From Branchiostoma floridae (lineage: Eukaryota; Chordata; Leptocardii; Amphioxiformes; Branchiostomatidae), in NCBI RefSeq assembly GCF_000003815.2, contig NC_049984.1, positions 9,215,805-9,279,804 of the forward strand: a DNA stretch of 64,000 bases, read 5' to 3'. Within the stretch, counting starts at the first letter, position 1. Each line of letters begins with the position of its first letter. This document shows, one piece after another, positions 11,401-37,705 of the stretch. Below the pieces are notes generated by a model. The model was not told the DNA's origin. It did no database searches and saw nothing but the letters and a program-made list of their open reading frames with translations. Both the position numbers and the translations under genes were made by a program.

Positions 11401-11796
11401 CAGAGTTAAGAGCTTCTCGTAGGTGGCCTGTGTTTTATCGACCAAAAATCAACTACTTACGTAACGTGTCATTTTAAAAGCAATCGACTTAGACACTGCG
11501 TTGCTGTATGACTATTGCTGGCTCTTGCTGGTAGTCATTTCTTCCCGTTCTTATTCTATCGTTACCATACGTATGACATTTATCTCCCACCAAGGAGCTA
11601 ATACTTCTGGTGTCGGCTTACTGGTATTTCTATACCGTGGTTCGATGTACTGCAAAGGACGGCCAAGCACCATCTCCTCATAGCTACCATTGTCAAGGGT
11701 ACCCGGTAGCCACTCGTCGTGCGTAGATTGGTCTACTTGAGCCAGACGGGTTGGCAGCTGCTGGGGTGTCACTGCCAAGAAGCAGAGCCGTGCACC
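8466..11796. other. Intergenic spacer between the two calcium sensor genes
   Basis: I see no exon, RNA gene or clear repeat array in this 3.3 kb. Open stretches at 8982-9206 and 10364-10846 have no domain, no splice support and irregular composition. The spacer must contain the 3' end of copy 1 and the promoter of copy 2, but I could not place either. Confidence 0.5.
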
Positions 11797-13569
11797 ATGG
11801 GCAAGAGTGGCAGCAAGCTAAACAAAAAGACGCTACAGGATCTCTTGGAGAACACAAACTTTTCCGAAGAGGAAATCAAGCAGCTGTACAAGGGATTTCA
11901 CAGGGACTGTCCGACTGGCAAGGTCACGCTCAAGGAGTTCAAGTACATCTATGGGAGGTAAGATGGATATAATCAAAGTTGTGGGTCGACGACTCCGCTT
12001 TGCCATGACGCAGAAAAGTTGAAAACGGGAAGGTGGTATCTAAAATATGAGCAATAATGCTGATTCAGCTGTTAACAACCGCCCCCTTAGAACATTTATC
12101 TTTCTGTTGTTTTGTCGACGTCATATGACAAAAATGTGCTAAAATGCAGCGACATTACGGATAAGTTATCACAATGAGAGCATGACGCGAAAACCCTTTC
12201 GTATAAAGTCCTTTACAGCCATAAACGCACAGAAGTAGACATGGATGAAGCATTTGAAAGTCACTGTACAAAAACGTTGCATGTGTTCCGACATGAGCAG
12301 AAGTAGGTTAGATCTGTTCAAACCGCAGCGTCATGATCCCGACACAAGTGTGTGACCAACATTGGCTCAAAATAACCACAGCAAACATCGCTCCTGGATT
12401 TTCCATATACAAAAACCACCACGTGTATGGTATTAGTACTCCCTTGACTGTAATGGCCAGGCGACGTGTCTCCAGCCGACGAGTTGCTACTGAAAATAAC
12501 CCTCCATCAGTCATGTCTTGCGGCGAGGATTATGATGGATCGCTTAGAACTTTTCCGAACAGTCAATTAACGCGAGGAGTTTATACGACTAGAATGTGAA
12601 TAGTCATTATAGCTTTCGGCAAATGAAGCTTTTTGGTTGAAAGACAATTGGATGGTAAAAATAAGCTGTGTCTAGCCATATTTGCTAAAAATTCAGACGT
12701 GCATTTTACAGATTTTTCCCATCGGGGAACGCCGACGACTTCGCCAAGCATGTCTTCAGGACGTTCGACACCAACAAAGACGGGTATGTCGACTTTCCGG
12801 AGTTCCTGACGGCCGTCAGTATGACGTCACGAGGCAGCGTGGAGGACAAGCTGAGATGGACGTTCGGGATGTACGACCTGGACAAGGACGGTTTTATCAC
12901 CAAGGATGAGATGCTCAATATTCTGGAGGTAAGACTTTATTTTTTTATATTTCTATTTTTATATTTATATCTTTAAGTCCATGACGCAATTAGCGAATGT
13001 GGTGAAAATATGAAGTAGGTATTATCATCTAACCCGTCCTTACGCGTAACACACCAACTTCGCAGGCACAAGGCGTTGCAGTAGCTGGTTATACTAGTAA
13101 CACTGAACGACTTGTCACACATAACTCTTGCACAGCTAGCTTTAAGCATTTTAAGGCTATCTGGTGAGGATGCCCCTTCAGTTCTTGGTACCTACGAGGT
13201 CCATTCAATAATTTTGAATTTTCGAAAACATCACCTCGACTTCCAAAACCTCATCATACATCAGTTATTTTGTCGACAAGAAAGGAGGAGAAGTCGATGA
13301 CACTTTTGTAGAAAGTGTAACTGAAACACAAAATGACACCAGGTTGTAATTTTGTACTCCAGGCCATCTATGACATGATGGGGTCTGAGATCATCGACTC
13401 ACTCCCACCGGAAGAGAGGTGTCCAGCCAAAAGAAGAGACAAGATCTTCGAGCTGCTGGACCACAACGATGACCAAATCATCACCCTGGAGGAGTTTCTG
13501 GAGGGGGCGCAGCGAGACAAGGCCCTGGTGGACGTCCTGACGAATGGGATCTTTAACAAAAAGAAGTAA
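11797..13569 (+). CDS. Neuronal calcium sensor (NCS/VILIP/hippocalcin-like) EF-hand protein, copy 2
   Basis: Three coding exons: 11797-11957, 12712-12928 and 13363-13569, giving 194 aa. Intron positions and phases match copy 1, and the middle exon is 217 nt in both. The N terminus MGKSGSKL is a textbook myristoylation signal (Gly2, Ser6). EF1 is the degenerate DCPTG form. EF2 (DTNKDGYVDFPE) and EF3 (DLDKDGFITKDE) look functional. EF4 (DHNDDQIITLEE) has Gln in place of Gly at loop position 6, so its Ca2+ affinity is uncertain. The C terminus ends in a Lys-rich tail. It is convergent with the large minus-strand gene; the two stop codons are 788 bases apart. Copies 1 and 2 are a tandem duplication. 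Confidence 0.94.
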
Positions 13570-14357: not shown

Positions 14358-17300
14358 TTATAAACCCTCACAAGGATGGTGGCTCAGTCCAGACCCAGTC
14401 TTCCCTATACAGATGGAAAGATATGATTACTGCTCTGTTCAAAACTGTGCTGTCTTGAATCATTTCTAACACTGCATATACAACTGTTGCCTGTTGTACA
14501 TTATGTATAGGATGAACAAAGTTTGATGATAAAAGTCTTTGTGATGTGGCTTTTGGAAGAAATTATGGCAAATAAGCATACTTTAAACATACTCACAATT
14601 CAAGGTAAATGCTTTTATCTATATCATTACATTCATGAATCATTGAATATCATTGATCATGAATAATATGGAACCAACAGCTTGCATGCATAGACTGCTA
14701 AACCTACTCAATATCACTCACATCCCTCCATGTACTACTAACATTATAAGCAATAGGAAGAAAAGATTTAATAGAACAACAAAGAAAATATGTATAAATT
14801 TTAGTCGGGCCTTTGCAAACGGTGCTTGCTTTGCAACTTACCCTCAATATGAGCCTTCAGGAGGATGGTGTCTGCTGTGTTTCCTCCTGAATCTGACGAC
14901 AGATAGGCTGGCACTAACATAAACACGTCTCCTCGGTGGGACATAATCTCAACATCTTGCGCTCCTGGGAAAAAAATTATTCAAAACTACTTTCAATCAT
15001 CTTGTCTTAAGACCTAAGGCCTTCCTAAGAAATGATTGAATTCTGCCTTATCACTGGTCTTGATCAAAGCTTGCTTAATAGAAAAGAATTCTGACATTAG
15101 TAAATAATAAACACCAACATCACTCGGTACAGAGCCATACATAACAAAAGCTGAATTTATCATTACATTGCAACGAAACTAGAAACTAAAATACTTGTTG
15201 ATCTGGGACGATCTGATAACTGCAGTATGTTGGGTAAACCTTGTAGGTCCAGGTAGAAGGGATCCTGAGCGAAGGCATTGACACCTGCCCACTTAAAGAG
15301 GCGCACCCTTCCGTCAGACACCACTACAGACAGGTACGAGTCACCTGCAGAAATAGCCACTATTACTATTCATGGTATAAGGATCAATATCAAATAGACA
15401 AACTGATAAATGGTACATACTAAATATAAAGTCAGAACTCAGTATCTCTTGACACAACAGGAAAATAAAACAGGCTCCAAAGACAGATCAGACATTTGCC
15501 AAAATCTTTTGATTCTAAACAGGACAAAATACTGGTTCCTGACCATAGGCTGAAAAGAATTCCACATCATATGCCCCTGGAACCTGAAGGGACTGTAGAA
15601 TAACATCCTCAAACTGGCCTGCAGAACTGTCAAACCTGCATGAAACAAGTAAAGGCAATGTCCACCATTAGACCAACAACAGTCTGACATTCCTTACTTA
15701 GGTATATGTAGTCAGAAGTGATTGTCACTGTGATGATATTCCTATTCTTGTCCTTCATCTAATATAAAATGTAAACATGATAGCTAAATCCAGAAACAAG
15801 AGACATGTACCTGTATATAATGACAGGTGAGATCATGTCAGGTGACTCCTTGGGGTTGTGTTGTGCCCAGGTAACAAATACCTTCCCATTGATCTCGAAC
15901 AAAACACAGTCCACCGCATAGTAGGTGTGGAATTCTTGGAGCAAGTGGAACTGTAGAACAGTAGAGACATCATCATCGAAGCTCATCTTTGTAATCATAG
16001 TACAAGGCTAAACTTTCTTAGAAGACAAAGGTACATGTATACAAGGATCAAATTTTCAGTGACCACTGTCGCCCTCCTCAGCATCAAAGGTCAATTATTG
16101 ATGGTGAAGAAGGCAACATTGGAAAATTTGATTGGATTCCATGTATACCTTTGTGTTGGAAGAAATTTAGCATTGTACTAACATTTAATTTAGAGAAAAT
16201 CAACATTAAAGTGTAATTAATTGCTCTTGCTCACAGTGATATTTCTAAAGCAACACATACCACATGAAACAATGGCTGTTTCTACCCAAGACAAGACTTT
16301 AAGTGCACACAAGTGAAACAGACCTGTTCACCAGCAGAATCCCACACAAAGACTTGTGACATCAGGTCCCCAGTGTCCCTGTCAGAGTCGTGGTGATTGG
16401 CCACACACAGGTAGGTGGTGCTGTCCACCTGGAGGATGTCCATGGCTGAGGCCCCGACTGTCGGCAGGGACTGCACCCACGTAAAGGCAAACTCATCTCC
16501 CTGCTTTATCATCTTGAATACTGGGGAATGGATCAGGTTTTTAGTTCAGTTCCAAGGTGAATTGATGCAAATACATGCAAACATTTGTACAGGTCTGGGA
16601 AATTATGCTCAATCTTCAATCATACTCCACTAAAACTAAAAATCTTTAAAGTATTTTTTGCTTCACTATCATTCAAATTGACAAAATCAGGCGTGTTCAA
16701 TCAATGTCATTACCAGCTGACGGTGTGATGCTGGACTGTATCTTCTCGTTGTAACTATTGGCGACGACCAGGTACACTCCCCGTGCTGTCCCAAACATGG
16801 CTAGGTCCATGGCTCCCTGGGTGGGGATCACCATGGGTGTGTCAGTGATGGGACTGATGATGATTGACACCTCGTCGTGCAGGACATCAGGAGGGAGGAA
16901 GTCTAGACAGGCTCTCGTCCCAGAACCCTGGTTCAGCCAGATGATGAACGCCATGTCGTGCACTGTGTAAAACTGCAAATAAAAGCGGAAAAACCATCTT
17001 AACAAATAAACAATCTTTATGCCTCAAAAAGGCATTACTCTGACTAGCCTGCTTTAATCTCGCTTATGGCAGCCTGCCCAACATCCGGAGGGGCCAGTTA
17101 CAGCCCCGGACACAGAGTTTGTGTTACACAGACTATACTCTGACATACACTGTCTAAAATGTCATCATCATGTTGATATCTTTATCTAATACAATCATGT
17201 ATTTACTTTGAAATGTGACAAGTACTAAGAACAAAATGTTTGCATGTAACATTATATTTCAATTTAAATGTTAATATATCATTTTGCATACAGTCATAGC

Positions 17301-20300
17301 CCACTGCCAGTATTTATTATAGAGAATCACACACATGTACCTGGTCATACTTTAAAGTTATGATCGATCTGTCACTGATACAAGGAGTTCTCTACCTCGA
17401 TGCTGCTGGGGTTGTGAGTTGGTAGGCTGAGATCAGAGAAAGGTTGGCAGTATGGGTCACCTTCTCCACAGATGTACCCCAGACTGGCTGAGCAGGGGTC
17501 AGTACTGGGTACAGGAGACAGGACAATGAACCAGGAGTCCCCGTTTGGGTCTGGCTGGAAGAACGACCCTTTGACGACCCCCGGTGTTTGGATGGTCTGG
17601 ATTATGTTGAAGTACCCAATGCGCTGAGGAAGGTCTGTGGAATAAAGGATGTACCTTTGGGGTTTTAGTCTGTGCTTTTAGCCTAGTACAAAGGAACATT
17701 GTACCCTTGAGGCTTAAATACAGTCGAAAGATTGTGTAGTTGCTAGACAGTCATTGACAAAATGTGAAATACATTGCACACTATTCCAATCTTTCAGTAC
17801 TCACTTTAGATTTGTGACCTTTGAATGTTTATTGTGCACTTTCTACACCAAATAAGAAATGTAGGGCGTCCAAATAAAGGTAATCAAATGCAGACTTTTC
17901 AAGGAAGAGGCACCATAAATGTATAAAGTATTTGTAGCTGAACTACAACATCATGTGGCTCGGAATATATGGTATCTACAGTTCAATAGGGTCATGATTG
18001 ACAAATTGCAGAATTGACTGTTGACTGAAAAGTCCCATAGCCATTCAAATTCACAGATCTGACTTAGTATATGAGCAATCATGATGATGAGAGATCAAGA
18101 TGACACAGTGATAGGTAATTAAAAAGGTCGACAAAAGATAAATCTACATATAACGTTAAACTAGTGAACTGATATGCTGATTTTAAAGATCAATTAGCAA
18201 TCCAATTTGCTAACATCATTTTGCCTTCCAAATGTAATAAAAGCCATGATCCTTCGTATTACCTGATGTTCTGTCGATCAGATTATTGATGACAGGGCAG
18301 AGGCCTTGAAGCTGGTCTCTAAATCTGCCCAGCTGGCTGTGGTCAGGGCTGCAGAAGTCTGGCAGGGCAGGAATGGCGGAGAGGTCGAGTCCCTCCACTG
18401 GGCCATGCAGGGTGACGTTGCCATGGATGAACACTTTACCACCAAAGGTTATGCTCTCATCAAATGAGTTACTCTGAATCTACAGAAATGTAGAACATGG
18501 GCTGTAAGATGTCTGAACGACACTTCCTCCTGTTATGGTTATGTATACAATAACAAAAATTGTTGCTCGTGTATGAAAATGCATGTCACACTTAATTAAA
18601 AAGCAAGCAAAAACATCAAAGGTGACATGTCTTCAGTCTGAATTGTCTTACAATGTTTCCTATTGGACATCTGAAATTGTCTTCATTCATAGTTATAAAA
18701 GACCTGTTTCTTCCGGATCACTTCAGTGTCACTGACAAAAACTGGTGGATTCCAGTTGAAACGTCTGACCGTTTCCAAAACCATATCCAGTTGCTTGATT
18801 AACTACTTTTTGGAGTATCTTATTACCTGGATGTCTAACCTACGTCGACGTAAGCAAAAACATATCATTTAGAGTAGCTTGGAGTTAACCACACCTTTCC
18901 AAGTGTTTTGAAGTGTTTGTGAACAACTCGATACAGTCGGTCCAAGTTAATGCCATATAGTTCTTCTGTCAGTAGATTTTTCTCGATGATGACGTCGCCT
19001 ACAAAGATCTTCTTCCCCTTGATGGTCTGGTGTTTCCCTAAATTGACAAAATCTTCAGGAAACTTGAATCCATTCACAGTCTGGTCAACTCTCAGGCCAC
19101 CTGTGAACCATAGGGAAAAACTGCAATGAGTAGATGGATTTTAGAAAATGTATCAGATAATGCACTTACCAGTTAGTCCAAAATAACTTTGTATTGTTGA
19201 ACTTGTCCTTAAAACAATACCAAGAACAATTCCTGACATTTAAAATCATTATCATCATCTGTCATCCCTAGTGGGCGGGGTAAGGCAATGTACAACGTCT
19301 CTCCATAGCACTTATTCATAGCTGCTACCAAGTCCTTAGTGTCAATCCCAGTGTCCTTGGAAATGGTTACTGGGTAGGTAAGCTTTCTCGAGTAGGTATA
19401 ATTCTCCTCGGCCTCCAGAGGATGAGTGAGGGGTTGACCTACGAACTGGACGCGTCAAAAATGCTGGAGGTGCTTATATCCTTAGAGCATATCCAATATA
19501 AAATCTGTTTCAGAGGAAAATGGCCTTGAAATACACCACTGCGAAAGGTGATATCACAAAGGAGTAACTTGCCAGTTATGTGTAAGTCCTTGAACGTGAC
19601 CTCTCCTGAGATCTCCTGATCAGTGGACAGCGTGACGACCCTGCTGGCGAGTCCTGACACATCAACCCCATCCACCAATCCTGTCACAGCAATGCTGCCA
19701 CCCACTTCCAGGTCTCCATCAAAGGTGACGTGGGTAGAGATGTTCTGGTCAGTGTGCAGAAGGACTGCGTCGCTGATGTTTATTCCATTGATGAGCCCTG
19801 AAAAAAAAAAGATTCATATGAAAGCTGTATTGTCCGCTGAAACTATGGAGTGAAGACTGTGGCTGAGACTTGGTACATACAAGAAATATGTTACAGATTT
19901 ATCAATTTATTGGTTTCGCTGTTCAGAATGCACAGGCAGGGCTGCCCAACCAGCCTATGGCTATTACATAAATATGGCACATTATTTTCTGGACATTACA
20001 AAAATGGAGCACAGGCAGCTTTGAATTGACTGATTTGCACCACATTTCTAAAGAAAATACAGCACATACCTGGAATAGTCACGTCACTATGGATAACTAA
20101 GTTGTTGACAAATGTTTTGTGTCCAGTGATGTCCTCGTCCCATCCCTGGTGGACCATGTCTGTATACAGCTCCGAGATGTCCACACCATTTATGGTGCCT
20201 CCAGAGTTCACTACAACATCACCTGTGAATAAGCACACAATTTGGGAGTCTAAGTACTTCAACGGCAGGGTATGTAATGTTTTAAGAGCAGCAGTGTAGC

Positions 20301-23300
20301 ATGTACTATATGTTCTTGGCCTAAGTTGTTAAACATTGATTTCATACATGCCCTGCGTCAAAGTTTACTTGCATTGACATGTTAATGAAATGCAATCAGG
20401 GCTGTTAACAAGGGTGTAGCCTACAATATTTTGAAGATTACTGTTTGACATATGATTCATAATGCAATTGAAGTCTTTTTCATCAAAATCTCCAACAGTA
20501 CCTGACTACTAACCATAGGCAATCCTACAAGCTTCTCCCCAATCCTTCTATCAAAGACCAATTGTTTTTTCATGTTGTAGTACAGTACAGTACAGCTAGG
20601 AGGAGCTTACCCTCCACATAGAGGTCTCCCTCCACTATCAGTCCATCTGGGTGTGAGAAGATGACCTGGGGGGTTAAGATGGTCTGTCTGGCTGACTTCA
20701 GCATGGTGTTGTGTAGGAAGTCATGCATGTTCACTCCATTGATTGTGTTAGCCTGCAGAATATAGTATAAGCCTATAAGGACATGTATAATGGAAATCAT
20801 CCTGAGTCACCTATATCAACCACTATTTCCTAAATCTCAATATCTAATCTGGACATTTGTTTGTTCGAACCCTTGTAGTGCCTTGTGTCACATTGGACAA
20901 CGCTGTTTAAGTAGCAGGTTATGTTTTTACAGGGAGGGATTGCTAGTGTGGCACCTCCTCAAACACAGAACTTTAGAACTTTATTGCGCAACGATCGTAC
21001 ATGGTACAATGTATGGAAAAAAAAAAAGAAGAAACAATCTTATCATTCTAATTACTAAAACAAGTATTAAACATAGTACATATGCAGATTATGACCCCCA
21101 TTTCAACTTCTAAAAGACTGGTGCAGCCCCAACTGGGATATCCTACCCAGGATTGAACTAGGGTCTCCATGTTACCAACTGAAACCAGGAGTTCAACTGT
21201 GAAGCTGCGACCAGTTGAGCTACAGTGTTTGGATGCAAGGCCAGTATATATATATAAGAAAATAATGATGACTGACGACATTCAATGTCTCCACATAGAG
21301 GACAACAAGTCAGAGCTTTAAACATTGTGAAACTCACCTGTAGATTGACAATGTTCAGGTCCCCTTCAATCACAATCTTGCCATCTATCCTTTGGTCTGC
21401 ATTGCCTGTCATCAGGGAATGACAGAAATCCCTCAAGTCTACAATGGTGTCTGTTGACCCATCAACAGTTACGTCTCCAAATATGGTCAAGTTATGAAAT
21501 GTTTTGTTGCCGCTGATTGTCTGATGGTCTGCATCCAACCGTACAGCTGTCGCATTTAGCTGGAAGAAGAAGTCAATGTCATCTTCAAAAATGTGGAAAA
21601 AATGCAAAAGATGGCAGGTGTGAGGGAAAAAGCACAGCTCTAATGTTTCTTCTTCTGTCCACAATACAAAGAACAAAATAAAGCTCATTGAGGCCAACAG
21701 AGTGGCTGTAATGTGAGTTGGCAAATCAACTCTGATGGCAAATAATTAGATGCTTAGAAGCTGGCTATCAAAGGGATAATGGTCTTGTGGAAAACACATA
21801 GGATAGAATTTCTATTTTTGGAGGCATAATCTAGGAGAAGCAGTAAAACAGTATAGGACTATTTGTTAATGCAGATGGAAGGGGAAATAAGCTCTCACTT
21901 CAGTAAGGTCCACTCCGTCGATGAGCCCGTCAACAGTGAGACTACTGTTAATGTAGACTGTATTGTTGAAGGTGACATCACCATAGACAGTGTGGTTCCC
22001 TGACAGGGTGAGGGCCTCAGACAAGTCCACACCATCTATCAGGCCATCTCCAACAAGGTCCAGGTTATCTGCGTACACCCAAGATATAACACATCCATGT
22101 AACACATCCGAACAGACTTGAATCTAGTGACATAACACTAGTTCACCTTTATCATCAGGGTAACCTATATCCTTGTTTGAAAAACAGGGTGTTCAGGGAT
22201 ATCACGTCCATAGACGGTGGTTTCAAATTGCAAGTTATTTTCAAGAAGTTGCACCGCCCGTCGACTTGATTTCCCTAAATGCCCAAGTTTTTTTACAAAA
22301 CAACGGTTATGGGTTACCCAGCGGATAAAGGTAAACAAGTGTTATACATCATGTATAATTGTTGTGTATTTCAACACTGGTAACATATTTGAAAATAAAG
22401 TCCATTGGAGTTTCATACTTCATCTTTTGCTAATCATTGCAGCAAAGAACTGTCCTCACCACATGTGAAGTTGTCGCTGAATATTTTGTGTCCAGTCAGG
22501 ATCTGCGGTTTGGACTTGTACAGGACAGTGTTGGCAAGGTCTGAGATGTCAACTCCATTCACCTCCTCCACCTCAAGATGGCCAATAATCATCACATCAC
22601 TGGGAAAATCACAGACAAGTTATCATAAATAAAGCTATATGTCATTACATACTCTTCTTCTCAAAATTAGATGTCAAAAATGAGATAGTCTTGTCTCCTA
22701 CTATGAATAAGATATGTAATAAAAACTTAGGGTTTCTTGGTAAAACAGAATGTTAAAAACACATGTACGAATGACTGCATATCAAACAATGCCATGTACC
22801 TACCAATTTCCTTAGTGTACCTACAATGACATGTCCACATTTAACACTAGTGATGAATTTACCAATATGCATTACCCAGAGAATGTTTTGGTGCCTGTGA
22901 TGACTTCATCTGACATGCGTACAACTTCCTCAGCAAACTGGGACAAGTCCACTCCATTCACAGTGTTACTTATCTCCACATCCTCACCGAGAAACTCAAC
23001 ATCATCCATGAATATAAAATCCCCTACAGGAAGAAATTCAATACATTAACGTATGTAATTGCACTTTCAGAGTTCTTAATGAAGTAACATTAATGTTCTT
23101 TAGAAGATGTAAAAGAACTGATGGAAGTCATGAACAAGTGGAATTTCAGTTAAATTACTGGTAGGAGTATTCCAGCTGATAGCAAAACATGTATTTTTCA
23201 TCAATTGCAACTTTTTTCATCTGGCACATCAGAGTTCAATGAAATTCAATTTTCAACCCAAAAATGCTAACAATATTAAAAATGATCTGAATAATCCAAT

Positions 23301-26300
23301 AGAAGCATCACCCTCCAGGACTTGGTCAGTAGAGAGTGTAACCACAGAGTCTGCTAAGTCTGCCAGATCCACACCATTCACCAGTCCCTCCACAGTCAGG
23401 TCTCCCAGTACTGTTCCGGGGGAGAAAAATGGCACCATTGAGAAATAAGAACTGATACCAAATAACTGAAGATTGAGCCAGTTACTGTACATTAGCTGAA
23501 ATGTAAGTCACAATTGCATCAAAAACATTAAATGTGTTTGATGCAATTGTGACTTGCAATACAGCTAAATTATATATGTCTATACTCATATGACTGAGTG
23601 TATATATGTCACAATGTACCAAGTCATAATTACATCAAATCATTGGTTGCCTGCAGGGCAGGAGACTGTAAGTTTCTTCCGGGCCCTCCTGTTGGCAGCT
23701 AGATGGCTAAACTTCTATACTCTTATACCCCCCTCACATTATATACGATCTTCGGACTTACTTTGCGATCGTAGGAAGGTCGGCTGATTTTAAGATCTTG
23801 GTCTTGCGTATTTTTCGCCCCAAAACTGTCCCTGTCACATATAAGCGATGCTCGTGCAATCGTCTGTGAATAAATTTATGATAATGAACCTCCAATGACC
23901 TCTTGCATGCGGACAAGGTAACACAAAACGTTCCTCACAGAGGGGCAAGATATTGTTGTACGACCCCTGAAAATCACCGGCGATCCCTAAAAATCGCAAG
24001 ATGATCGTGAGAACACCGTATGTCTTACTCATGAAATTGTCATTTAGAGCTTGTAGACTAGTCTTCCGATCGATTTTCGCCTAATGTGAGGGGGGTAATA
24101 TGACTGTGTTTGCCACAATGTACCAAGTTTTCCTCCACAAACAGACACACAGTTACCTTCTATGTCAGAAAGAAAGGTATTCCGTCCTGCGATGTTCTGG
24201 TCTCCCTCCAGCATGACAGCGTTCTCAGCCAGCTGCACGATGTCGATGTCATTGAGACGTCTGTCCCCAGTGCTGACCTCTTCAGCGTACAGGTCGCCCA
24301 TCACGTACACATCGTCCAAGAAGATCTTGCGTCCTTGTTAAAGTAAAAGTAAGTCAATACATCAGAATGTAGCATCCCATAAAAATCATAATCCATTTTT
24401 TTGGCTTAGATAACAACAGAGCATTGAGTTTTGTATATGAACATTTCAATCATAAAATTCCTACTTACAACAACCAAACGAAGCCATTGAGAACATTTGA
24501 TTCAGAAATATTGTTATTTACATAAGCAAAATACCTCATAAAGGAGTTGCAATATGATGACTACCTGTTATGTTCTGGTCTCCATATTTCAACACTAGGT
24601 CCTCGGGTATACTTAGTCCATTCAGCAGTCCCTGTAGTTCTATGTCGCAGAATGTGACATTCCCAGCAAACTGCACTGGTCCAGTGATGGTCTGGTTGCC
24701 GTGGACCTTTACCACAGTCCTGTCCACCTCAGAATAGTCCAGCCCTCCCACAGTCACCCCCTCAGCCACCATCAGATCTCCTGCGATGTCCACGTCACCT
24801 TCCACCGCCCAGCTCCCGCTGATCACCTGTTCTGTTGCCGTGGTTACCAAGTTCCCAGGAACCTCTTCACCGTCCAGCAGCCCCGAGATGTCAACATCCC
24901 CCAAAGTCAGGTTCTGCAGGATGAGAAAGGTCACACACAGACAGATTGCAGCTGTAGGACATCTAACAACAACTGGCCATGACATGCAGTCAACTCCAAA
25001 ACTAATGCAGAACGCTTAAACTTTCAAATCGATTTACTCTTTTGAAAATGACATCCAATGCACTGTATACATGTCCATCCAAAGTATCATTTCACATATG
25101 GCTTTCCTAAAACTTTGTATGCTCTCAGGACAAATATCTGAGATATCAACATAATGTGGGAACCATTGAACACAAGTATTGAACATGCCAGATACTTAAT
25201 TATAGTATGTAGCACTCATATACCTAAAATCAGTATATGAGCTAACTGAACATACCTTGAATGTCATCTTTGTAAGGATTGTTTGGTTGCCTGACTTGGT
25301 AAAGACTTGTTCGGCAAACTCACTGACATCAATATCATTCAACGTGCTGTTTAGAATCACATCAGTGGCATTCACATCGTTTTGGAAAGTTACAAAGTCC
25401 TCGATGATGGTTGCTTCATTCTTCTTGGCTGACTTCTCGTCAAGTTCAGAAACATCTACTCCTTCTATGGTTACATCTTCAGACATGTCCATGTCCCCTT
25501 CAATGCCTATGCTGTTTGTGAAAGTCTTATGTCCTGTGAACAAAAAGGCACTGAACTGAATAATGTCTCATCACGAAAATATACCCCTTAAATGTCTTTT
25601 TTGTTCAGACTCTAATGCAGTGCCTTAAGTAACACACGGGGCAGCAAGTTTACGAGCTGTAGAACCATATTTTTGCAGGGAGGGGTTGGTAGCTCTTCAC
25701 TCTTTTAACATGCTGGAGGCACCTCCTCAAACACGGGACCGCCATTTTACATCCCTTTTAAAAGATGGTGCAGCTCCCACCGAGATGTCCTGATCCTGGG
25801 ACTTGAACCAGGGTCTCCTAGTTAACAAGTAATTGGAACCAGGAGCTCAACTGCTACTAGCTGAGTCACAGCGACAAGTGCAGTAAAAGTGTAAAACTTT
25901 AACATTATTTCCTACAGCAAACATTCATTCTTGTCTTCCAGTAGATAAAGTCATGATCTGCTTTATTTGTGTTTGATGAAGCAAGCTATTTCAAAGACAA
26001 GAAAACCACTATCAAACCCTCCCACCTGTTATATTCTGGTCACCATACACCAGAACTGAATCCTCCGAAAAGTCAATCCAGGTCACCTGCCCATCCTCAG
26101 TCCAGCCCAGACCACCTTCTGTCTCAATGTCCCCAGTCACATGCAGGTCTCCTGTTATTGTCTGGCAACGTCACATGACAACATTAAATTACAACATTAA
26201 TGTTATAATAGTTCACCTTTATCCGCGGGGTAACCTATATCCGTTGTTTATAGAAAAAACAAGGTATTTGGGGATAGCAAGTTTACAGACGGTGGTTTCA

Positions 26301-29300
26301 AACCGTATATTGAATATCTTGTAATGTCCGTCGACATGATTCTGTATCCCTAATTACCTTGTGTTTTTTTAACAACGGATATAGGTTACCCCACGAATAA
26401 AGGTGATACTAGCATTAACAGTATTATAAAGAAGTAACCACAGTTAAAAAGTCTTTTACAGAAGTTACTTGTCTCTTGAAATCCTCTTCTAATTCTATAA
26501 GAACTGTTTAAAGGGAAATGAGTAAATGACAAAAAAATGTCTGCACTAAAAACCTGCTTTTCTTCCTCACCAGAGATCCTGTCACAGTCTGTTCAGTAGA
26601 TGTTGTGATGTAGTCATCGGGAACAAAATAACCATTCAACCGTCCTTCCACTGTCATGTCACCAGTTATGTTCAGCAACAAGCCTAGGAAAATCAGACTA
26701 TATCTTTATGCATGTACAAGAATTTGAGAAAAGACACCATTAAAAGAAACTATTGATGACTCATCTGTTTATCTAACGCAAAAATGCATTGTCCAGGGAA
26801 CAGATTCTTTACTCTCACCTTCAGTCCCATTGAAGATTTTTACACCTGCATAAAATGAAAAAAAAAATTCTCATCAACCATTAGCAACAAATGAAGAATT
26901 TCAATAAATCATAAAATACTAACTGCAAATATCATTAAATAAAGATTATCATTCAATTCTTAAGCTTGAATTGAAGCATACATTGATGGTATTGAGTGTT
27001 TATGAATTCATATCCAATAAATCTGATGGAATTTTTCTACTATGGCAGTGGCCAACAAAGGAGGCATTAGAGCTAAAATGTCCATAAAACTTAAGTCATG
27101 TATTGATACAGCAAACTGCATTCAAATTGGATTATGCTATGAGTAGGTAAAATGCTGGTTTACTTCTTGACTATCGCAAAACAGACCATTTCTAACTCAC
27201 CATGAATGACTTGATCGGTGTCCTTGTACACAGCATTGTCAGCCAAATCAACAAGTTCTACTCCGTTCACCAGGCCCTCTGTTATTAGGTCACCGTCGAT
27301 CATAAGGTCCTCAAAGATCAGTGAGCCATTGATGGTCTGGTTCTCACTCAGGAGAACAACCTGGTCGGCAAATTCTGACACATCTATCTGTACATGACAA
27401 AGCAAAGAAAATTTAAAGCAATGTGAGTGACAGAAGACTGTTATTTTCAAAAAAAGACATAGAAATAAGACAAGAGGCTGTTGAAATCAGTGATAGAAAA
27501 GTTATATGACAATACAGTGTGTTTCTTTGTTATCATGGCATCAAACATACTTTTTTTACATCTAATATGACAAGGGATTAAAGTCTATCATTTAAACATG
27601 GCAGAGTGTTGAGCCACTTGTACAATGTTAGCTGGTCACTTACCCCATCTATTTCTCTGTACATGCCCATCTCCACATTGCCATCAACAGTAACATGTTC
27701 ATCGATGGTCTTTAGGCCTGCAATTTCCTGATCTCCATACACAAGAACCAGGTCTTCTGGTATCTACATACAGATGGAAAGCAAAAAAAAATTTATTTTA
27801 TATTTGAGAAGTTAACATAGATAGACTGGAAGTGCATTAAAAACAAAGATTTGACTAAAAGGTGATCAAACTCCCATTCACAAATAATGGTTTACTATTT
27901 ATACATTGTTAGGAAAGCATGGCAGTAAATGAGTACAAAAAGTCATTAATACTGAACAAAGTGACTAAAACAAAATTGACCAAAATATTCAGCAAGTACT
28001 GGCATCAACATACTGTAGCAACTCTGCATCACAGCTATACTACTACAAAGATATCAAAGCCTATCATCACATTCTGTGGATGATATACTCTCTCCTTGGT
28101 GCTGAAATGCAATCATCCATGCAAAAATGTTGTTGTTTGGAATTTTGTGACAGCACATACACTCCTATTGAACAAAACATCTGACAGAACACACCAACAG
28201 GCCATTGACTTCTCCTTGGACTTGAACATCGCCATCCACAATGATTGCTGGTGACCCAGAGAAGGTGAAGTTTGCTGTTAGATTGCTGTTCTCATGGATC
28301 AGCACCAGATCATCTGCAACAGGGGATATTACAAGTCAATCAAAAACCAGTAGAAATATAGTATGACATTATATAATTTATTGTAAATGTTAAATTTTTG
28401 CGGTGTTTAATGTTTGTGTTTTTCATTGTTACCTCTTTAATGCAAACTTAAATGCACTTACAAGCTCTGTTTTCTGCCCACCTTCCCCAGTGTTCAAATC
28501 ATAAACTTGTAACCTCAGTAAACATCCTATTTTCTTGTAAAATTAAATCTACACAAACATACAATGTCAAGCATTTACAGTACAGATGCTCAACTGTATT
28601 CTAAGAAAGGTAGGGAATAGGTATGCTATAGTTAAAAGGCTGGGGTTTAGGGCAGGTACAAAAGTGTAGAAAAGTTTTTCAAAAGGAAGCATTAATTTAT
28701 CACTACAGTGGCAGTAATGTTTATTCATTTGCTTAACAATGAGTACATAGGGATGAAACTTACAGTTTAATTATATAATCTCATTAACTACTGTAAAAGG
28801 TGAAAATGTTAACAACAATTTACTGGTAACTTTCTTTAGTGAAGAGGTCACTGCAGTGAAGATGTCACAGCAAAACCGTGAACTTAAAACTACTGCAAAT
28901 ATTTCTCCTTTAACAGTAACTTCATGTACAACCTGACTGGTTAACTAACCCAGTATGTTTTTAAAGTTTGCAGTGAGGAGATCACTGTAAAAACGTAACT
29001 TAAAACTATTGCAAATATTTTTCTGTTTACAGTAACTTCATGTACAAGCTGACTGGTTAACTAACCCAGTGTGGCATTATTGGTGGTTCCATTGACCAGT
29101 ACGTCCCCAGCTACGTGGACATCACCATGGATGATCAGGTTTCCTCTGATCTCCTGGTCTCCTGTCATCTTCACCACTGATCTATCCAGCTCCACAAAAT
29201 CCACCCCATTCACAAGTCCAGATGTTGTCACCTCTTCAACAATGAGCTCTTCAACAGTTATATCCTTAGCAAAGGTCTTGGTACCTATTGAACACATGTG

Positions 29301-32300
29301 CAACACATGAATAAAAAGTCTTAGTGTATGATACTTTGAAGGAAAAGCATGACTTATCCAATTTCCATTTAGTATTTTGTGATCTATGATAGCTATGACA
29401 GCAGCTCATCTAAGTTCATCAACCACTGTAAATAAGACTAATGCAAACATACTCTGGGCAGAGTTTAAAAAAAAAAATCATAAATCACACCCTGAGATTG
29501 ACATTTCCTCTCCTTGGTGCTGAAATGCAATCACCCGAGTAAACAAGTCGTTTTGGGGAGTTTTGTGGTGCCGATGTTTACATACTACCAGCAAATAATT
29601 GTTAATGACAAATGGACAAGTAGCTCACTTGAAATGTGATGAAGATGGTACAAACATTCAGTTGAGACACTATCTTACTTATCTCTGAGACATTATCTTA
29701 CTTATCTTAGAACGTTGGTACTGCCAACACAATACCTTTGACGATGCTGGGTCCATCAGTCATCATAACAACATCTTTCATCTTCTCCTGGATGTCTCCA
29801 AGCATCTTCCCAGTCCTGCTGACACCCTCCTCCAGGCTGGACAGGTCCAGTTTGGTGGAACCCAGATTTGTAGCTGTCTCTGGCTTTGGAGGCCGAACAA
29901 TCTTCAAGTTCTGCACTATGAGATGCTCCACCTCCACATATTCATACTCATGGTTTCCGGTCACAGTCTGAGTATAGGAGCCACAAAAATCATCTTATGT
30001 ATCACAGCATAAATCAAAAGCAAAAAAAATGTAAATAATCAGGGCCATACACTAAATATGGCATGGATTCCAAAGTAAATACAGTTACCTTTGTGCAACA
30101 TTTTGACATGCCTCTAATTCATTCTTTTACCCTTTCTACAAAACATTGATGACGATCGCACATGATATAGTTCTCTCACCTGATCATCTGGAAGAGTCAT
30201 GATTTTATCAAAATGGTTCCTCAGTTTCTTAACCCTGCCTTGCAGCTCCTCTGTCTTCTCAGATAGTTTCTTCACCATCAATCTTGCTTTGTCTAGAATT
30301 TTTTCTTCAGCATTCTCCTCTTGTTGACCAGAGAACTCCAATCTACAGAAACATATTCAGTTTGTTATCATTACACAAATCAAGCGTATTTTAGCAATCT
30401 ATTGCATTTACTTCAGTCAGTACCCTAGTTGACCGAAAACGGGGACAATTTAGGATTTTTAAGATTTACGGACAGATCCCAACTGGGAACAGATCCCAAC
30501 TGGGAATAATCCAGGCAGAGATGAATTCTGGATAGGCATGGATCCCTATGGAGAAAGACTTTAGTGGGGATAGACCCCAACCCGAACGAACCCTGGCCTG
30601 GGCGCATTATGGCGTGGAATCAAGCAAGTAATGAAATAAGAACAGATTCCAGCATGGACATATTTTGGTACAAATACATATTTCAGTAGCAAACGGTAAC
30701 ATTATTTAGCAAAGGTATGAGATCATGGAAGGTAATGAATTTAATATAATCTTATAGTTGAACAACTTTTCAGATTTTATAATGAACACTTGAAAACTGA
30801 CACCTGAAGACATTGGACTTGGTGCTATTCCTGGAGGAGACAGTGACCAAGTAGAACCTTTGCTGGATGGTCATGGCCTGTACCATTGACACATGGGTGG
30901 GGAGGGCCACCTCTAGTGGAACAGGTAGGAACTGTCCTGACTCATCATACTGGTACAGCACCAGTGGGCCCTACAGGGGACAAGACATGGCAACAACTAT
31001 GAGCTAACATCTCTACACTCAAACTGATGGGAGGGGTCATCAATTAAAAACAAAATGAAGAAACTGCACAGCAACAACTAGAGCTAACATCTCTACACTC
31101 AAACTGATGGGAGGGGTCAGCAATTAAAAACAAAATGAAGAAACTGCACAGCAACAACTAGAGCTAACATCTCTACACTCAAACTGATGGGAGGGGTCAG
31201 CAATTAAAAACAAATGAAGAAACTGCACAGCAATAACAAAAAAACACCCTTGAAATCTTGAAAAACAGCTTAGGCCGAAGACGGATCAAGGTTAAATACA
31301 GGTTGAAAAAAATAACTCAAAAAGAGAGTAGTAACTCTAGCTTGCGGTGTTTACAAAATTTCCTGAATACCCCCGTTGACCAACAATAGAACTGTTCAGC
31401 TAGGTTTAATTTGTAGGTCTCATCACTAAGTTATGAAATGATCAGAAGTAGATGCAATTGATACTCAGACCTGGCTATTGGCTGCAATGAGGACAACTTC
31501 ATTGTTGGGCAGGCGAAGGGATTCCCACTGGGTGATGCCGATGGTCGGAATGAACTGCCATTCTATGAACTGGCTCCCCGCCCACCAGTAGATGACTGAG
31601 TCAATCTGATACTGTCTGTAGACGTGTGATGAGTGTGGATGTGCTATGGGATGTAAAACAGCAACACACAGTCACAGTTCCTATATATAATGCATTGCAA
31701 ACTAGCTTGAGAGTATCTACAACTTATTTAAATGCTGTTATGTACGCTTATCCAAGACCTCTCTAAACCAAATCTTTTAAAGAATCTATGTCTAAAATAG
31801 CAAAGAAAACTGACACAATTTAATGGAATTTTACCCTGCTAGACAATGCAGTGCTTATCATCATTATGGTAGATGACACAGAGAACCTACAGACAAGTTA
31901 GGGCTAATTTAAGAAGGAAGAAAACACTGTCTAGTAGTTTACCTGTCAGTGTTATGTCCTTGAACTGGTTGGCAACAGCAAGGTAGTGGTGCCCACCCAT
32001 CTCAAAGTGCTCAAAGTCTGAAGCACCACATGTGTGGAAGTTCTGATACAACTCGTACTCATCTGTCTCACTGGAGAGGGGAGGGCAAGAGAAGTTCTTC
32101 TAATTATCAAGAAGGCTAAAGATGTTGTTATCAGATGGGGTATGTAGAAGGGGTTCATTTACATCCTTACTTTACCAGCTGCCATACAAAAAGATTTCAA
32201 GACTTCTTGGTGACCAAAGATATTAAATTCTCAAAACTCTCCGAAGATGGTGACCAAAGATAATTCTCAAAACCGCTTCAAAAACAAGTCGTTCAATGAA

Positions 32301-34649
32301 ACAGCCTGAATATGAATAGATCAAGGCCCTTGTACATGCTGTAAAGTATAACCATGATCGTACTTGTACAAAGAAATCTGACTGAAGTGCTGAAAATTAC
32401 CTGTCAAGCTTGTACAGGAAAGACAAGGTACAGAACGTATCAAAGGTGCGATGATTTGCTATAGCAAGGTACGACTCTCCATTGATCTCCAAGTGCTCAA
32501 TGTCCACTGCTCCCTCTGTCTGGATGCTGTATATTGCATCAAAATGGCCATGCTCCCAACGGAAGATTCTGGATCTGTACTGAAATCTAGAGCAGGAAAA
32601 GATGCTGTATCAGATCAGAACTAAATAACAACAACATTAACCTTTATCACACTGACTTCATTTCAAAGTCAACTATCTATTGCTACCACCAATGTATAAA
32701 AGCTGGTGTAATGAATTTTTTAATATGTACTGAGTAATTTGGTGGAGCAACCTTACAATCTATTCTTATGGATAAGGGTTACTTTTTCTGGTGTCCTTCC
32801 AGCTTGCCAGGATCAGCATAAGTAGCTACTGCCAGCCACAGATGGTCGTCATAGCGGAACATGGTGGCAGACTGTCCCTCAGGGTTGATAATGGACTGTC
32901 TCCTCTCAAATCCTGTGTATGGTGAGGTTTTCTGTGATGTCATGGAGAGATGGATAAGGTAAAAAAGTACCTCAGACTCAATGTACTACATATTTAGCAT
33001 AGGGGCATCCCATATTAGATAGCTTTCAACAATGCATGAAGTCGGATATGCAAAGGTTAAGTGTGTCAGGTTGTTAAGTGTAATATACTCAGCTGCTGCC
33101 GTTTTACATGCCTGCAAAGCTGGTGTGTTACGCTGAAGGGGGATTACACCAGCTATACCAGGAATGAAACTTTCTGGTATTCCTCTGGTAACATTGGCAA
33201 CACCATATCTTACCAGCTTTTGGCAATTCACTAAACATGTCATTGTGCTTTATTGTTAGTCTCTACCAGACTCCGGATCGCTGGAAAATCGAAGAAATGG
33301 AACAATAGAGAGGAATATAACCGGCCAGGATATATTCCTCTGGCCGGCTTACTCCTCTATTTGTTCCATTTCTACGATTTTTCCAGCGATCCGGAGTCTG
33401 GTAGAGACTACTTTATTGTAAGCTTGAATGTATAGTACACTTCTGTACTGTACATTCTAAGCTTGAATGTACAGTACAATCCTGTACACTCCAGCACTGC
33501 ACATTCAAGTACACTTCCGTACTGGATATTCACTTACCCCATATATAGTGACTATTGGGGCATAATACCCAGCTACAGTGTTGGTGATATTGCTGGAGAC
33601 TGCCATCAGAACATGGGGTGCTCCAGTGGAGATGTCAGTGATGAGGGTAGTGGCCACACCCTGTGCACCATGGGTAAGGATTGAGTCATGTGCATGGAAG
33701 GTCTCTAAATCTGAGAGGAAGACATGTAATAAACAAACAAGCTTTCAATTATTTTATAAAGAATGTTGACATGGCCATTCTATTAAAGGGGTGAACCCAC
33801 TGGACAAAGCCGCATGGAAGCACATTGTGAAGACTATCCGACTGCTACCTGCCCATGTAAGGGATCCCAGTAGCAGTATAATAAAAAAAAATGGAATCTA
33901 CAATTACCATCAACCAACCCGTGTATTTAAGTATCACACAAAAGAATTTGTTGAGAGATAGCAAGAAAACCTGTGTCAAATCTGTAGATATTGCTGTTTG
34001 TCCATGGACCATTCCTGATAAACCCCAAGTAGACGTCTCCTGAGAAGTTGAAGGCTGTCATGCCAGACACGACACTGTGTTGATCATCCATGACGTAGTC
34101 CTCACATTCCAGACACTGACTCAGCTCAACCACCTGTCTCAGCCACAGGCGGTCAGATTCATCTGTACATGTTGGCATGAGAGAAACTCAGCATACTGAT
34201 CAAAGTTGTAAGGAAAGATTCAACATAAGTAAATGTTGTGTTTTCAGCTGTAAGTGAGAATGATTTGAGTTGCTGGGGAAATCTGCACCCTACATAAATT
34301 AAGTCACAATAAAGCAAGCGAATCAGCAAAAACAGAATGTATGATATCTTGCATACAAGTATTAAGAAAACATTACTACATCACCTGCAGGGATAGACGC
34401 TCCAAGCCCAATGGCACGTTTCTTGCGAGGGTCAGGAACGCGTGTATGATAAACCTGATTAATGTCTTCTCGATGTTTCACCATCCTCTTCTTCAGCCAC
34501 TGCCTCATGGCTTGCTGGACGTGCATAGGGTCATCCAAACCCAGGTGGTCAGTGTGGCTTGAGTTTTGGCCTTGCCTGTGTCTGTTTACCTCTGTCTGAC
34601 TTGATGCTACTGATGACCAAAGAAGTAGAAGGACAAAACCGTACCACAT
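14358..34649 (-). CDS. Large secreted protein: EAR propeller, coiled coil, NGVD-repeat array, EAR propeller
   Basis: 38 coding exons join in one frame to 2158 aa. From the 5' end: 34385-34649, 33971-34162, 33538-33710, 32783-32931, 32401-32586, 31943-32070, 31471-31643, 30804-30970, 30180-30342, 29736-29967, 29066-29284, 28195-28313, 27644-27763, 27201-27387, 26819-26845, 26571-26683, 26026-26161, 25256-25533, 24565-24913, 24157-24333, 23312-23410, 22876-23023, 22460-22599, 21899-22068, 21338-21559, 20611-20752, 20070-20222, 19573-19797, 18895-19100, 18263-18479, 17396-17634, 16714-16972, 16324-16520, 15811-15950, 15544-15635, 15240-15344, 14842-14964, 14358-14404. Residues 1-18 are a signal peptide; RKKR at 75-78 is a furin-type site. 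Seven EAR/EPTP blades (about 89-480) show the family Y/F-L-A-V-A-N strand. A charged coiled coil follows (about 485-532), then the repeat array (about 535-1690), a Cys-containing linker, and seven more EAR blades (about 1760-2140). EAR propellers occur in LGI, TSPEAR and VLGR1 and bind partners outside the cell. The whole architecture is not one I recognise. One intron (exon 28/29) needs a GC donor. Confidence 0.88.
14842..17634 (-). other. C-terminal seven-blade EAR/EPTP propeller block
   Basis: Exons 31-37 encode a second set of seven EAR-type units, including TQGAMDLAMFGTARGVYLVV, VGASAMDILQVDSTTYLCVA and VPGAYDVEFFSAYGDSYLSV. The exon 35 to 36 join (TATG to GTGACTCG) is set by the EAR motif running straight across it. 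The terminal exon adds 15 residues after the last blade. Candidate polyadenylation signal in antisense around 13944. Confidence 0.78.
20930..21245 (-). mobile_element. tRNA-derived SINE, copy 1
   Basis: On the minus strand a tRNA-like head reads TAGCTCAACTGGTCGCAGCT (A-box region) and then GGAGACCCTAGTTCAATCCT (B-box region). A body shared with 25625-25890 follows (GTGGCACCTCCTCAAACAC block). It lies in an intron of the large gene, in the same strand sense as the gene. Ends and target duplication are not resolved. Confidence 0.65.
22128..22350. mobile_element. TIR element, ATAACACTAGTTCACC family, copy 1
   Basis: Inverted ends read ATAACACTAGTTCACCTTTATC and, on the other strand, ATAACACTTGTTTACCTTTATC, followed by a shared GGGTAACC block. 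The middle carries GACGGTGGTTTCAAA, which is also found in the copy at 26.2-26.4 kb. Intronic. It has no coding capacity. Confidence 0.7.
23726..24097. mobile_element. TIR element with TACCCCCCTCACATTA ends
   Basis: Perfect 16-base inverted ends (TACCCCCCTCACATTA) bound a 372-bp stretch rich in GATC-type words. A related fragment of the interior (GGAAGGTCGGCYGAT then TTTTAAGATC) is present at about 7598-7632 in intron 2 of the first calcium sensor gene. I could not settle the target duplication. The element ends 60 bases from exon 20 of the large gene. Confidence 0.7.
25625..25890 (-). mobile_element. tRNA-derived SINE, copy 2
   Basis: On the minus strand: TGACTCAGCTAGTAGCAGTT (A-box region) and GGTTCAAGTCCCAGG (B-box region). 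The body carries the same CACCTCCTCAAACACGGGAC block as the copy at 20.9-21.2 kb. A pol III promoter inside a short intronic repeat is the hallmark of a tRNA-derived SINE. Confidence 0.68.
26205..26412. mobile_element. TIR element, AGTTCACCTTTATCC family, copy 2
   Basis: Inverted arms read AGTTCACCTTTATCCGCGGG + GTAACCTATATCCGTTGTT and, at the right, AACAACGGATATAGGTTACC + CCACGAATAAAGGTGAT. It belongs to the same family as the copy at 22.1-22.35 kb. Intronic, non-coding, with ends placed to within a few bases. Confidence 0.72.
28840..29075. repeat. 116-bp tandem duplication overlapping an exon end
   Basis: The block ending CTGGTTAACTAACCCAGT occurs at about 28921-28955 and again at 29037-29070, 116 bases apart. 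The second copy includes the last bases of exon 11 of the large gene and its splice donor. The first copy therefore carries a duplicate donor-like site about 116 bases further into the intron. Confidence 0.7.
30989..31233. repeat. 80-bp tandem repeat, three copies
   Basis: The unit containing GAGCTAACATCTCTACACTC recurs at 31001, 31081 and 31161, so the period is 80. Copies are almost identical. It lies in the intron between exons 7 and 8 of the large gene. Confidence 0.92.
33257..33410. mobile_element. 154-bp fold-back element with 9-bp target duplication
   Basis: The inverted arms begin TAGTCTCTACCAGACTCCGG and cover most of the element. The 9-base direct repeat CTTTATTGT lies immediately outside both ends (33248-33256 and 33411-33419). 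A 9-bp duplication fits Mutator-like (MULE) MITEs. It is intronic in the large gene. Confidence 0.88.
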
Positions 34650-35659
34650 TTTGGCTGCTGTTGTGGATGAAATGAGGTATGATTGTCAAAGTTATCATGG
34701 TACTGTGCAAGACATAAAAGTTATATTCATAAGCATGTTTATAGATCCAATTGTGCATGTATGGATCAAAGGAAAAGCATTATTGTACACTGGCATTATT
34801 GTACACAGTTCTTGTCTCGACCACGCAGGACCAGATATATAACGTTATAAAATAACATTCGTTAGTCGATTTGCATAACAATGTAAAATAAAGTTTTACT
34901 AATAAATATATTAACAGTCTACTTCCGTCGTATGTAATCGGGTGCAGCCGATGTGCTGCAGGCAAGAAACGTATTATAATGATTCTGACCCCACTGCCCG
35001 TCCTATTTGTACAAAAGGGCCGCTACGGCCCAGCCCAGGGCATGCGGCACTACCCTCACCTCGGCGCTGCCCGCCCAGGGAAACAAGTGAAATGGGTTCG
35101 GTGTGGTCTACATGTTCCCGCCATCTCTTGCACCTGCCTGACGTCTCTTCCTACCAGCCAATCAAGTCTAGAAATTGAATCTATCAGATTCATGTGAGCG
35201 CATTCCGCCATTTCCTGACCAAGGCAACCCAACCAACTCAGCTGAGAACAGCTGTTTAACAACATCTAAACGCACCAACTATCGACAATTACTACTTCTC
35301 GATATAAATCGATAACAAGAATATAAGCATTATAAAAGACGACTTTTAATTGGTATTTAAATTGAAATTCTAATGTCAGTCTTCTAATATCACGTTATAC
35401 AAATTAAAAAGGTGCTAAGAGTTAAATTAAATCAACTCCTTCGTTTGGATGCGTAAGGTCAAAAGTTATAGAAAGCGCGCCAGTGATGATTCAACCTGAT
35501 GATACGTATAGTGTCTCTGTCATGTCGATCTGTCAGCGTCGACAAAAAAGAGCCCTGCGTTTGTGTAGATTTCTAACAATAGTAAAATGAATGACTGTTC
35601 CCGTTTACTGAGAAGCAAAGTTATCCAAATATAAGTTATCAAACTCTGAGAAAAAATAC

Positions 35660-35732
35660 CGAGTCTGCCAGGATTCGAACCTGGAATCTTCTGATCCGTA
35701 GTCAGACGCGTTATCCGTTGCGCCACAGACCC
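35660..35732 (-). tRNA. tRNA-Arg(ACG), copy 1
   Basis: 73 nt starting GGGTCTGTGGCGCAACGGAT. A seven-pair acceptor stem, a D arm, an anticodon loop CTACGGA (anticodon ACG, decoding CGU with I34), a five-base variable loop and a CCAGG/CCTGG T arm with TTCGAAT can all be drawn. A TTTTTT terminator follows on the minus strand. It lies about 960 bases downstream of the zinc-protein gene at 36690-37610, on the same strand. Confidence 0.96.
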
Positions 35733-36689
35733 ACAATGTATTCAAAGTGGTCCGTTGGTGAAATTATTAACAATCCGTTTAGTAAGCTTATTATCAATAA
35801 TCATCTAAACCCGACTGATTCATCATTTGCCAGAGCCCAGACCAGGGGCAACTTGATGTTCGCTAGTCACTATTCATTCATTCATGTTCGCGTATGTGGC
35901 TCTCCGAACTCCATGCCGTATACGTACTTAGGCACAAGACGTTCTTTTCTAGTTTCGATTTTCAGGTGCGATATTGGAATTGTGATAGTTCCATTAATAT
36001 TGGTTGCCTAAATTGTCTTTTTACGTTACGTGGGCTGCCATTTATAATTGGGGTATTTAGTGAAACTCTTCAAGTATGTGTAAATACTTAAGTATGGCCT
36101 ACGTCACATTTCCAAACCGGCCACGACCGGGCAGCTTTCGGGAAGTATCTTATTAGATACACCAAACTACAAACGCCGTAAAGAAAATAGTCGTATTCAT
36201 ATTTTTACATACAACCGTTACATTTCGATTTCACAAACAGTCCGACCGGGCCCCGGTTTGGAAACGTGTCCTATATGGGGATGGGATATATCCATAGCGT
36301 GTAGTGTGACATCGTCTAGAGGAAAAAAATAATGCTAGAAATACAAATGACGAATACACAAAACTGGTCATGTCAGTAATGGTTTTATTTTTATAGCATC
36401 AGAGCATAACGTCAGTCTCCACATACATGGAACATCGTCAGTTCTACTGTATTTAAAAACATAAAACAATCAATGATGCCATGCGAGTTAAGGTCACAAA
36501 ATATCACATAGAATATACTAGAATGATTATATAAAGATTACATTAGTCAACTCAGAACATACTTTCACATCATACAGTACATGGCGTTACATCACAACAA
36601 ATTCGTTCCAGGTGTAATTCGCCGTGTCAACCAAACTATTCTGCCAGAGACTATACAGTACACGTATGTAAACAGTTCACAAAAAATTC

Positions 36690-37610: not shown

Positions 37611-37705
37611 ATCGTCACGTTGGTGTTAAAGTATGTGGCAAGTCAGTCGATGTGCTCTCTGTGGAAACCTACAGAGGTATAACTGAAGCGCTTGTCGGGA
37701 CAGGA

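Follow-up and report, generated by a model that had tools for sequence, protein, structure and literature searches.

The minus strand of the window, that is, of the whole 64,000-nucleotide stretch of amphioxus DNA analysed here, carries from position 34649 down to 14358 a gene for which our computational model has 38 exons, 6477 nt and 2158 aa, with one terminal stop (Table 1). The sequence-only reading had described 38 exons in frame over 6477 nt, and this was reproduced by a 37-exon version from our own gene finder (the base model, 2079 aa) together with two hand edits. The finder uses dynamic programming on splice-site and codon scores, and was seeded with the visible repeat and EAR exons. 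Its first-choice start was the ATG at 34484, which was later fixed to the ATG at 34649 of the sequence-only reading; with this start, four intron penalties gave 36, 37, 40 and 42 exons, and all versions terminated at the stop at 14358. The 40- and 42-exon versions (penalties -4 and -3) were dropped, the extra exons of the former disrupting the repeat pattern or splitting an EAR exon. The first edit added the exon at 34162-33971 between exons 1 and 2 of the base model (an EAR exon, phase 1 in and out), and the second lengthened exon 36, which had been 15 codons short, to 15240. Both were picked by reading frame and EAR pattern, with the exon and length figures of the sequence-only reading known beforehand. 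The finder scored 463 on the gene strand and 25 on the opposite strand. Two overlapping segments of 21.6 kb from other parts of the window scored 37 to 79 (both strands), and three shuffled sequences scored 4 to 10; this control is partly circular because the codon table was trained on this same gene. The weaker junctions of the model are the poor donors of exons 2 (GTTTTC) and 36 (GTTTAC) and the GC donor of exon 28, and in the final exon two alternative stops score within 4 units of the 464 of the chosen stop.

Table 1. Features of the window gene (positions within the window; exons in the direction of transcription) and of its two paralogues (positions on their contigs).
Feature	Position	Strand	Remarks
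Whole gene	14358..34649	-	38 exons, 2158 aa; gene finder and two hand edits
Signal-peptide-like N-terminus, aa 1-18	34596..34649	-	Read from translation
Furin-like RKKR, aa 75-78, end of presumed propeptide	34416..34427	-	Read from translation
N-terminal EAR propeller, exons 2-8, aa 89-478	30804..34162	-	Pfam EPTP 1e-18
Exons 2-5 (N propeller)	34162-33971, 33710-33538, 32931-32783, 32586-32401	-	Exon 2 added by hand, weak donor
Exons 6-8 (N propeller)	32070-31943, 31643-31471, 30970-30804	-	
Coil-like exon 9, aa about 484-525, leading into first neck-like unit	30180..30342	-	Heptad register
Rod, 27 neck-like units, aa 523-1712, exons 9-30	18263..30342	-	Iterative profile
Exons 9-12	30342-30180, 29967-29736, 29284-29066, 28313-28195	-	Rod
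Exons 13-16	27763-27644, 27387-27201, 26845-26819, 26683-26571	-	Rod
Exons 17-20	26161-26026, 25533-25256, 24913-24565, 24333-24157	-	Rod
Exons 21-24	23410-23312, 23023-22876, 22599-22460, 22068-21899	-	Rod
Exons 25-28	21559-21338, 20752-20611, 20222-20070, 19797-19573	-	Rod; exon 28 with GC donor
Exons 29-30	19100-18895, 18479-18263	-	Rod
C-terminal EAR propeller, exons 31-37, aa about 1760-2144	14842..17634	-	Pfam EPTP 3.3e-15
Exons 31-34 (C propeller)	17634-17396, 16972-16714, 16520-16324, 15950-15811	-	
Exons 35-37 (C propeller)	15635-15544, 15344-15240, 14964-14842	-	Exon 36 end set by hand
Exon 38, short tail GKTGSGLSHHPCEGL	14358..14404	-	Least certain exon
Paralogue C1	about 28.076-28.115 Mb		EAR, rod, EAR complete on one strand
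Paralogue C7	about 8.431-8.451 Mb		EAR, rod, degenerate C-terminal EAR

Both ends of the encoded protein belong to the EAR/EPTP family. In a Pfam scan of an almost complete draft of the protein, which lacked 16 residues, EPTP scored 67.5 bits (1e-18) at the N end and 56.3 bits (3.3e-15) at the C end against a curated cut-off of 21, with three and four stretches, respectively, at E<=1. By eye, the N end shows seven blade segments and the C end six, of which two are degenerate, and the blades of the two ends match each other by profile with a probability of 96.8%. Our own EAR blade profiles retrieved no solved EAR structure from the PDB. An RGD lies at aa 2113, inside the C-terminal propeller, and the N-glycosylation sequons are distributed as 26 in the rod, 4 in the N part and none in the C-terminal propeller.

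Between the propellers, the coil-like stretch of exon 9 (64% hydrophobic at a/d in its best heptad register) ends in a first, incomplete repeat unit (aa 523-537). Another stretch of heptad character, whose best register is 67% hydrophobic, stands just before the unit at aa 597, and a short D-L-S-E-L-A-like segment is present in many of the later units. An iterative profile found 29 stretches in the rod, 27 of them below 0.05, at a median spacing of 43 aa, a few being partial. All 32 matches of a six-frame scan of the window with a repeat profile built from the gene's own units overlap exons of the model (27 below 1e-6), compared with 1 to 6 matches in each of five shuffled windows at the same loose cut. 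Four introns, those after exons 14, 17, 19 and 21, are all phase 1 and interrupt the unit at one shared point, directly behind D-Q-x-[IL]-x. Acidic residues outnumber basic ones in the rod (206 D+E vs 63 K+R), and its sequence is periodic. The autocorrelation of glycine has values of 2.81 and 1.85 at lags of 6 and 12, and the hydrophobic periodicity is highest for a period of 6, where z is 6.3, compared with 5.3 for a period of 5.5 and 5.8 for one of 6.5. The architecture proposed in the sequence-only reading is borne out in its in-frame exons, its secretion-like N-terminus and RKKR (both visible by eye in the translation), its EAR domains at both ends, a coil-like stretch and its rod. Its "about 25 NGVD repeats" stand as an array (about 27 units, some partial) but not as a motif, exact NGVD occurring only five times and the looser [NDE]G[VILF][DENSF] 16 times in the protein, and the phage-neck likeness and the two paralogues described below had escaped it.

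The window gene is one of three genes of the EAR-rod-EAR type in the genome. A consensus protein was searched against a 513.4-Mb assembly of 431 contigs, in which the window is C6:9215805-9279804, and, with scoring restricted to the best candidates, gave at least 42 matches at E<=1. Twenty-six of these, at E<=0.003, fall in three places, namely the window on C6, C1 near 28.08-28.10 Mb and C7 near 8.44 Mb, and the other 16 comprise 11 in the same three places and five elsewhere, none of these five better than 0.009. Matches to EPTP number 18 and are spread over six contigs, in one cluster per contig, C6, C1 and C7 included. Like the window gene, both paralogues have an EAR domain, a coil-like stretch, a rod and a second EAR domain, which in C7 is degenerate (our own EAR profile found only the N-terminal one, and Pfam gave 17.4 bits vs a cut-off of 21). 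The draft model of C1 (2381 aa) differs from the window gene in that its rod contains a match to fibronectin type II (4.8e-7) and its first EAR domain may be preceded by an F5/8C domain (4e-22); this F5/8C domain and the far C-terminal tail of the draft may belong to neighbours. The C7 draft (2073 aa) has an RMKR site ahead of the EAR domain and, unlike the window gene with its many small exons, a single 1411-base exon that holds part of the N-terminal propeller and the first rod units. The window protein aligns with C1 in one match over aa 224-2156 (25.6% identity, E 4e-126) and with C7 over aa 278-1638 (22.4%, E 1e-44); by domain, the identity of N propeller, rod and C propeller is 24.6%, 32.3% and 26.9% to C1, and 23.1%, 25.2% and 19.3% to C7.

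These paralogues argue against an artificial fusion, in which the 38-exon chain would join two neighbouring EAR genes and a repeat gene. Several weak donors in the model would suit such a fusion, but we consider it very improbable, because C1 fully and C7 weakly keep the order EAR, rod, EAR: C1 has it on one strand and in one collinear alignment, C7 has it in a weaker form, and the window gene itself is in frame throughout. Shared intron positions were set aside as proof of the gene model, being too weak: four introns are shared with C1 at the same phase, little above chance (null 1.35, sd 1.1). Within the reach of computational evidence, both the gene and its architecture can be taken as real. 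Three further EPTP loci lie at C2 23.302 Mb, C4 13.976 Mb and C18 10.507-10.518 Mb; the sequence examined there, which is partly N, contains no rod repeat with E under 0.05. A single LGI gene has been reported for amphioxus (PMC3691968), and one of these three loci may be that gene.

In sequence, the rod unit is similar to a module already described, the neck found in phage receptor-binding proteins (best E 3.3e-8, against 0.73 for the reversed profile). A profile of 21 rod units, compared with 177,635 distinct PDB sequences, gave 13 matches at E<=1. Of the nine leading matches (3.3e-8 to 6.9e-7), seven are TP901-1 BPP/BppL variants, matched over neck residues 34-62, and two are entries of "Major structural protein 1", a name also borne by a product of Lactococcus phage Tuc2009; since all nine are variants of these two, they count as two proteins. 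The tenth match, "orf22", stands at 3.9e-4 and the other three at 0.42 to 0.85, and the reversed profile gave its one match only. A single natural unit of paralogue C1 retrieves the same phage chains (best 0.0023), and the stretch shared between rod unit and phage neck includes a T-G-D-x-x-I-x-G-x-K-T-F core. With weak copies summed, Pfam BppL_N reaches 3.8e-20 in C1 and, in the window protein, 1.1e-13 for the scanned C-terminal part and 0.52 for the N-terminal part. Full-length phmmer against the PDB yielded three matches, all weak (0.77 to 0.96); BPP accounted for two of them (BPP at 0.95). TP901-1 neck residues 40-63 are described in PMC3893620 as a beta-prism of three interlaced chains with a six-residue motif, preceded by a three-helix bundle at residues 17-30.

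The likeness extends to other phage sequences. Because a single window repeat gave nothing credible by tblastn against phages (four records, E 6 or worse), a two-unit consensus was needed; searched against 50,697 phage records, it found 21 (best 5e-7), and its reversed form found two (best 2e-3). Six of the 21 are named (tailspike, receptor-binding or structural protein, tail or long tail fibre), 14 are hypothetical and one is unannotated. A search of PHROGs with the rod returned one family of unknown function at 2.2e-5 and three others at 0.28 to 0.45. A bacterial origin was considered and provisionally rejected, a relative being encoded in 3 of 282 pattern stretches from the genome collection, whereas for viral contigs the figure was 26 of 139. 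In the viral contigs examined, the unit is present, under a permissive threshold, 1 to 7 times per open frame with irregular spacing, and the dense array of 27 units is particular to these animal genes among the sequences compared. Whereas TP901-1 BPP has one neck and a head domain, the window protein has about 27 units in a row between propellers; the Pfam scan of the protein contains no phage receptor-binding head, with EAR domains at both ends instead. Among the matches listed in a search of open-licence literature, we found no paper tying EAR proteins to phage necks.

From the computed gene structure, EAR domains, repeat array, phage-neck sequence match and paralogues we infer a trimer, a fibre, binding by the propellers and a coat function. 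We regard it as reasonably likely that the locus is a single gene for a secreted protein, one of three paralogues, whose product forms a three-chain fibre with a neck-like rod and propellers at each end and acts as a linker in a coat. In the proposed model, the chain would run from propeptide through EAR propeller, coil and rod of about 27 units to the second EAR propeller, each rod unit consisting of a short helix-like stretch followed by beta-strand hexads, as in the phage neck. Three such chains would be intertwined over the length of the rod, as they are in phage necks, and the resulting trimeric fibre would be stiff and carry three propellers per end; if the propellers bind partners, the fibre would tie two surfaces or matrix components together, most likely in an extracellular coat. 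The rod is probably a three-chain fibre because the phage neck is trimeric with a six-residue motif and glycine recurs every six residues here, and, as it is the unit itself that resembles the neck, the trimer is predicted along the whole rod, beyond the coil alone. The protein is thus probably a long trimeric extracellular cross-linker, and cross-linking or adhesion is the role that we would best infer for it. If this model is correct, an animal extracellular fibre would be made of many copies of a phage host-recognition neck, a route to long trimeric rods distinct from collagen and coiled coils.

The predicted fold and trimer draw on the likeness of a 29-residue stretch, for which the best nine matches represent two phage proteins, and the hexad pattern could be convergent. 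The rod might then be a single-chain beta-solenoid or spacer, the phage-neck likeness a convergence on a six-residue beta pattern, and the protein a monomeric two-ended linker, a reading that we judge rather unlikely. In its favour, the window protein has weak matches to Bactofilin, which is a beta-helix (17.7 and 20.2 bits vs a cut-off of 27.9), and the few, irregular neck-like units of the viral open frames are unlike the dense array in the window. However, the strong PDB matches are to phage necks and are not reproduced by the reversed profile, the core motif common to both goes beyond a mere hexad pattern, and the coil-like stretches before the first units resemble the helix bundle before the TP901-1 neck.

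The window protein differs in layout from the EAR proteins LGI, TSPEAR and VLGR1, as the sequence-only reading had said of its two-propeller protein. The N-terminus of TSPEAR is a thrombospondin-type laminin G domain, as its name implies, and VLGR1/ADGRV1 combines Calx-beta repeats with seven transmembrane helices. The window protein (2158 aa) has no Pfam match at E<=1 to LRR, laminin-G, Calx-beta repeats or seven transmembrane helices, and the layouts of LGI, TSPEAR and VLGR1/ADGRV1 are thus all absent from it. The EPTP repeats are shared with TSPEAR and with VLGR1/GPR98, which is, however, a transmembrane receptor. LGI1-4 are likewise secreted with EPTP repeats but are about 60 kDa, with an LRR domain, one propeller and no rod; the seven EPTP repeats of LGI are believed to fold into a seven-bladed propeller (PMC3691968). 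That an EPTP protein can serve as an extracellular linker is illustrated by LGI1-ADAM22, a 2:2 complex (PMC5906670). Proteins named "thrombospondin-type laminin G domain and EAR repeat-containing" occur in the skeletal proteome of red coral (PMC7853314), and proteins of the same name are found among shrimp transcripts marked OB, which we read as ovary-biased (PMC4659196). Drosophila Closca is given as the TSPEAR orthologue, with a score-column entry of 3 (PMC10898740). Together with Nasrat and Polehole, Closca makes up a heterotrimeric complex, in an extracellular coat set. Taken together, the LGI1-ADAM22, coral, shrimp and Closca reports point to coat or matrix assembly.

The Drosophila complex raises the possibility, which seems to us doubtful, that the three genes are chordate counterparts of Nasrat, Polehole and Closca, whose products would assemble into a single heterotrimeric fibre of a coat, either the egg envelope or some other apical matrix. 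The genome has three paralogues of roughly 2000 to 2400 aa, Closca is set against TSPEAR in the table just cited, and a trimeric rod would account for three subunits, but the number three may be coincidence. That the fly trio shares the rod of the window protein is a guess, and among the matches listed from the open-licence literature we found no paper tying Closca to EAR structure; the Nasrat/Polehole/Closca group may nevertheless be taken as a serious candidate for an existing name of the family. A broader and decidedly speculative scheme, to which we give a low probability, would have a phage-type trimeric neck acquired by animals and multiplied into long EAR-capped fibres, with heterotrimers of the three paralogues building extracellular coats and the Nasrat-Polehole-Closca eggshell complex as the same machine. 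If true, it would explain the mutual need of these three proteins, and the structure of the fly eggshell complex, to which Torso-like is anchored, could be approached with a hypothesis open to direct testing.

The surroundings of the gene contain several other features. Beyond its 3' end, at about 2061-13566 on the plus strand, are apparently two EF-hand genes, which we take to be of the neuronal calcium sensor type; EF-hand matches lie at 7257-7553 and 12689-12970, with none in the shorter pieces 2061-2231 and 11793-11955. Four tRNA-Arg(acg) copies of equal score lie within 19 kb, at 35659-35733 on the minus strand and at 46760-46834, 51108-51182 and 54467-54541 on the plus strand, and may be the heads of a tRNA-derived short interspersed element. 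A coding-looking element, with open frames of up to 395 aa by eye, is present in about four near-identical copies, at about 36600-37900 on the minus strand and about 50000-50800, 52100-53400 and 58100-59300 on the plus strand. The copy at 36696-37625 has a weak CCDC106 match, below cut-off (1.2e-4), and the copy at 58091 has none; the element is possibly a dispersed mobile or retrocopied one.
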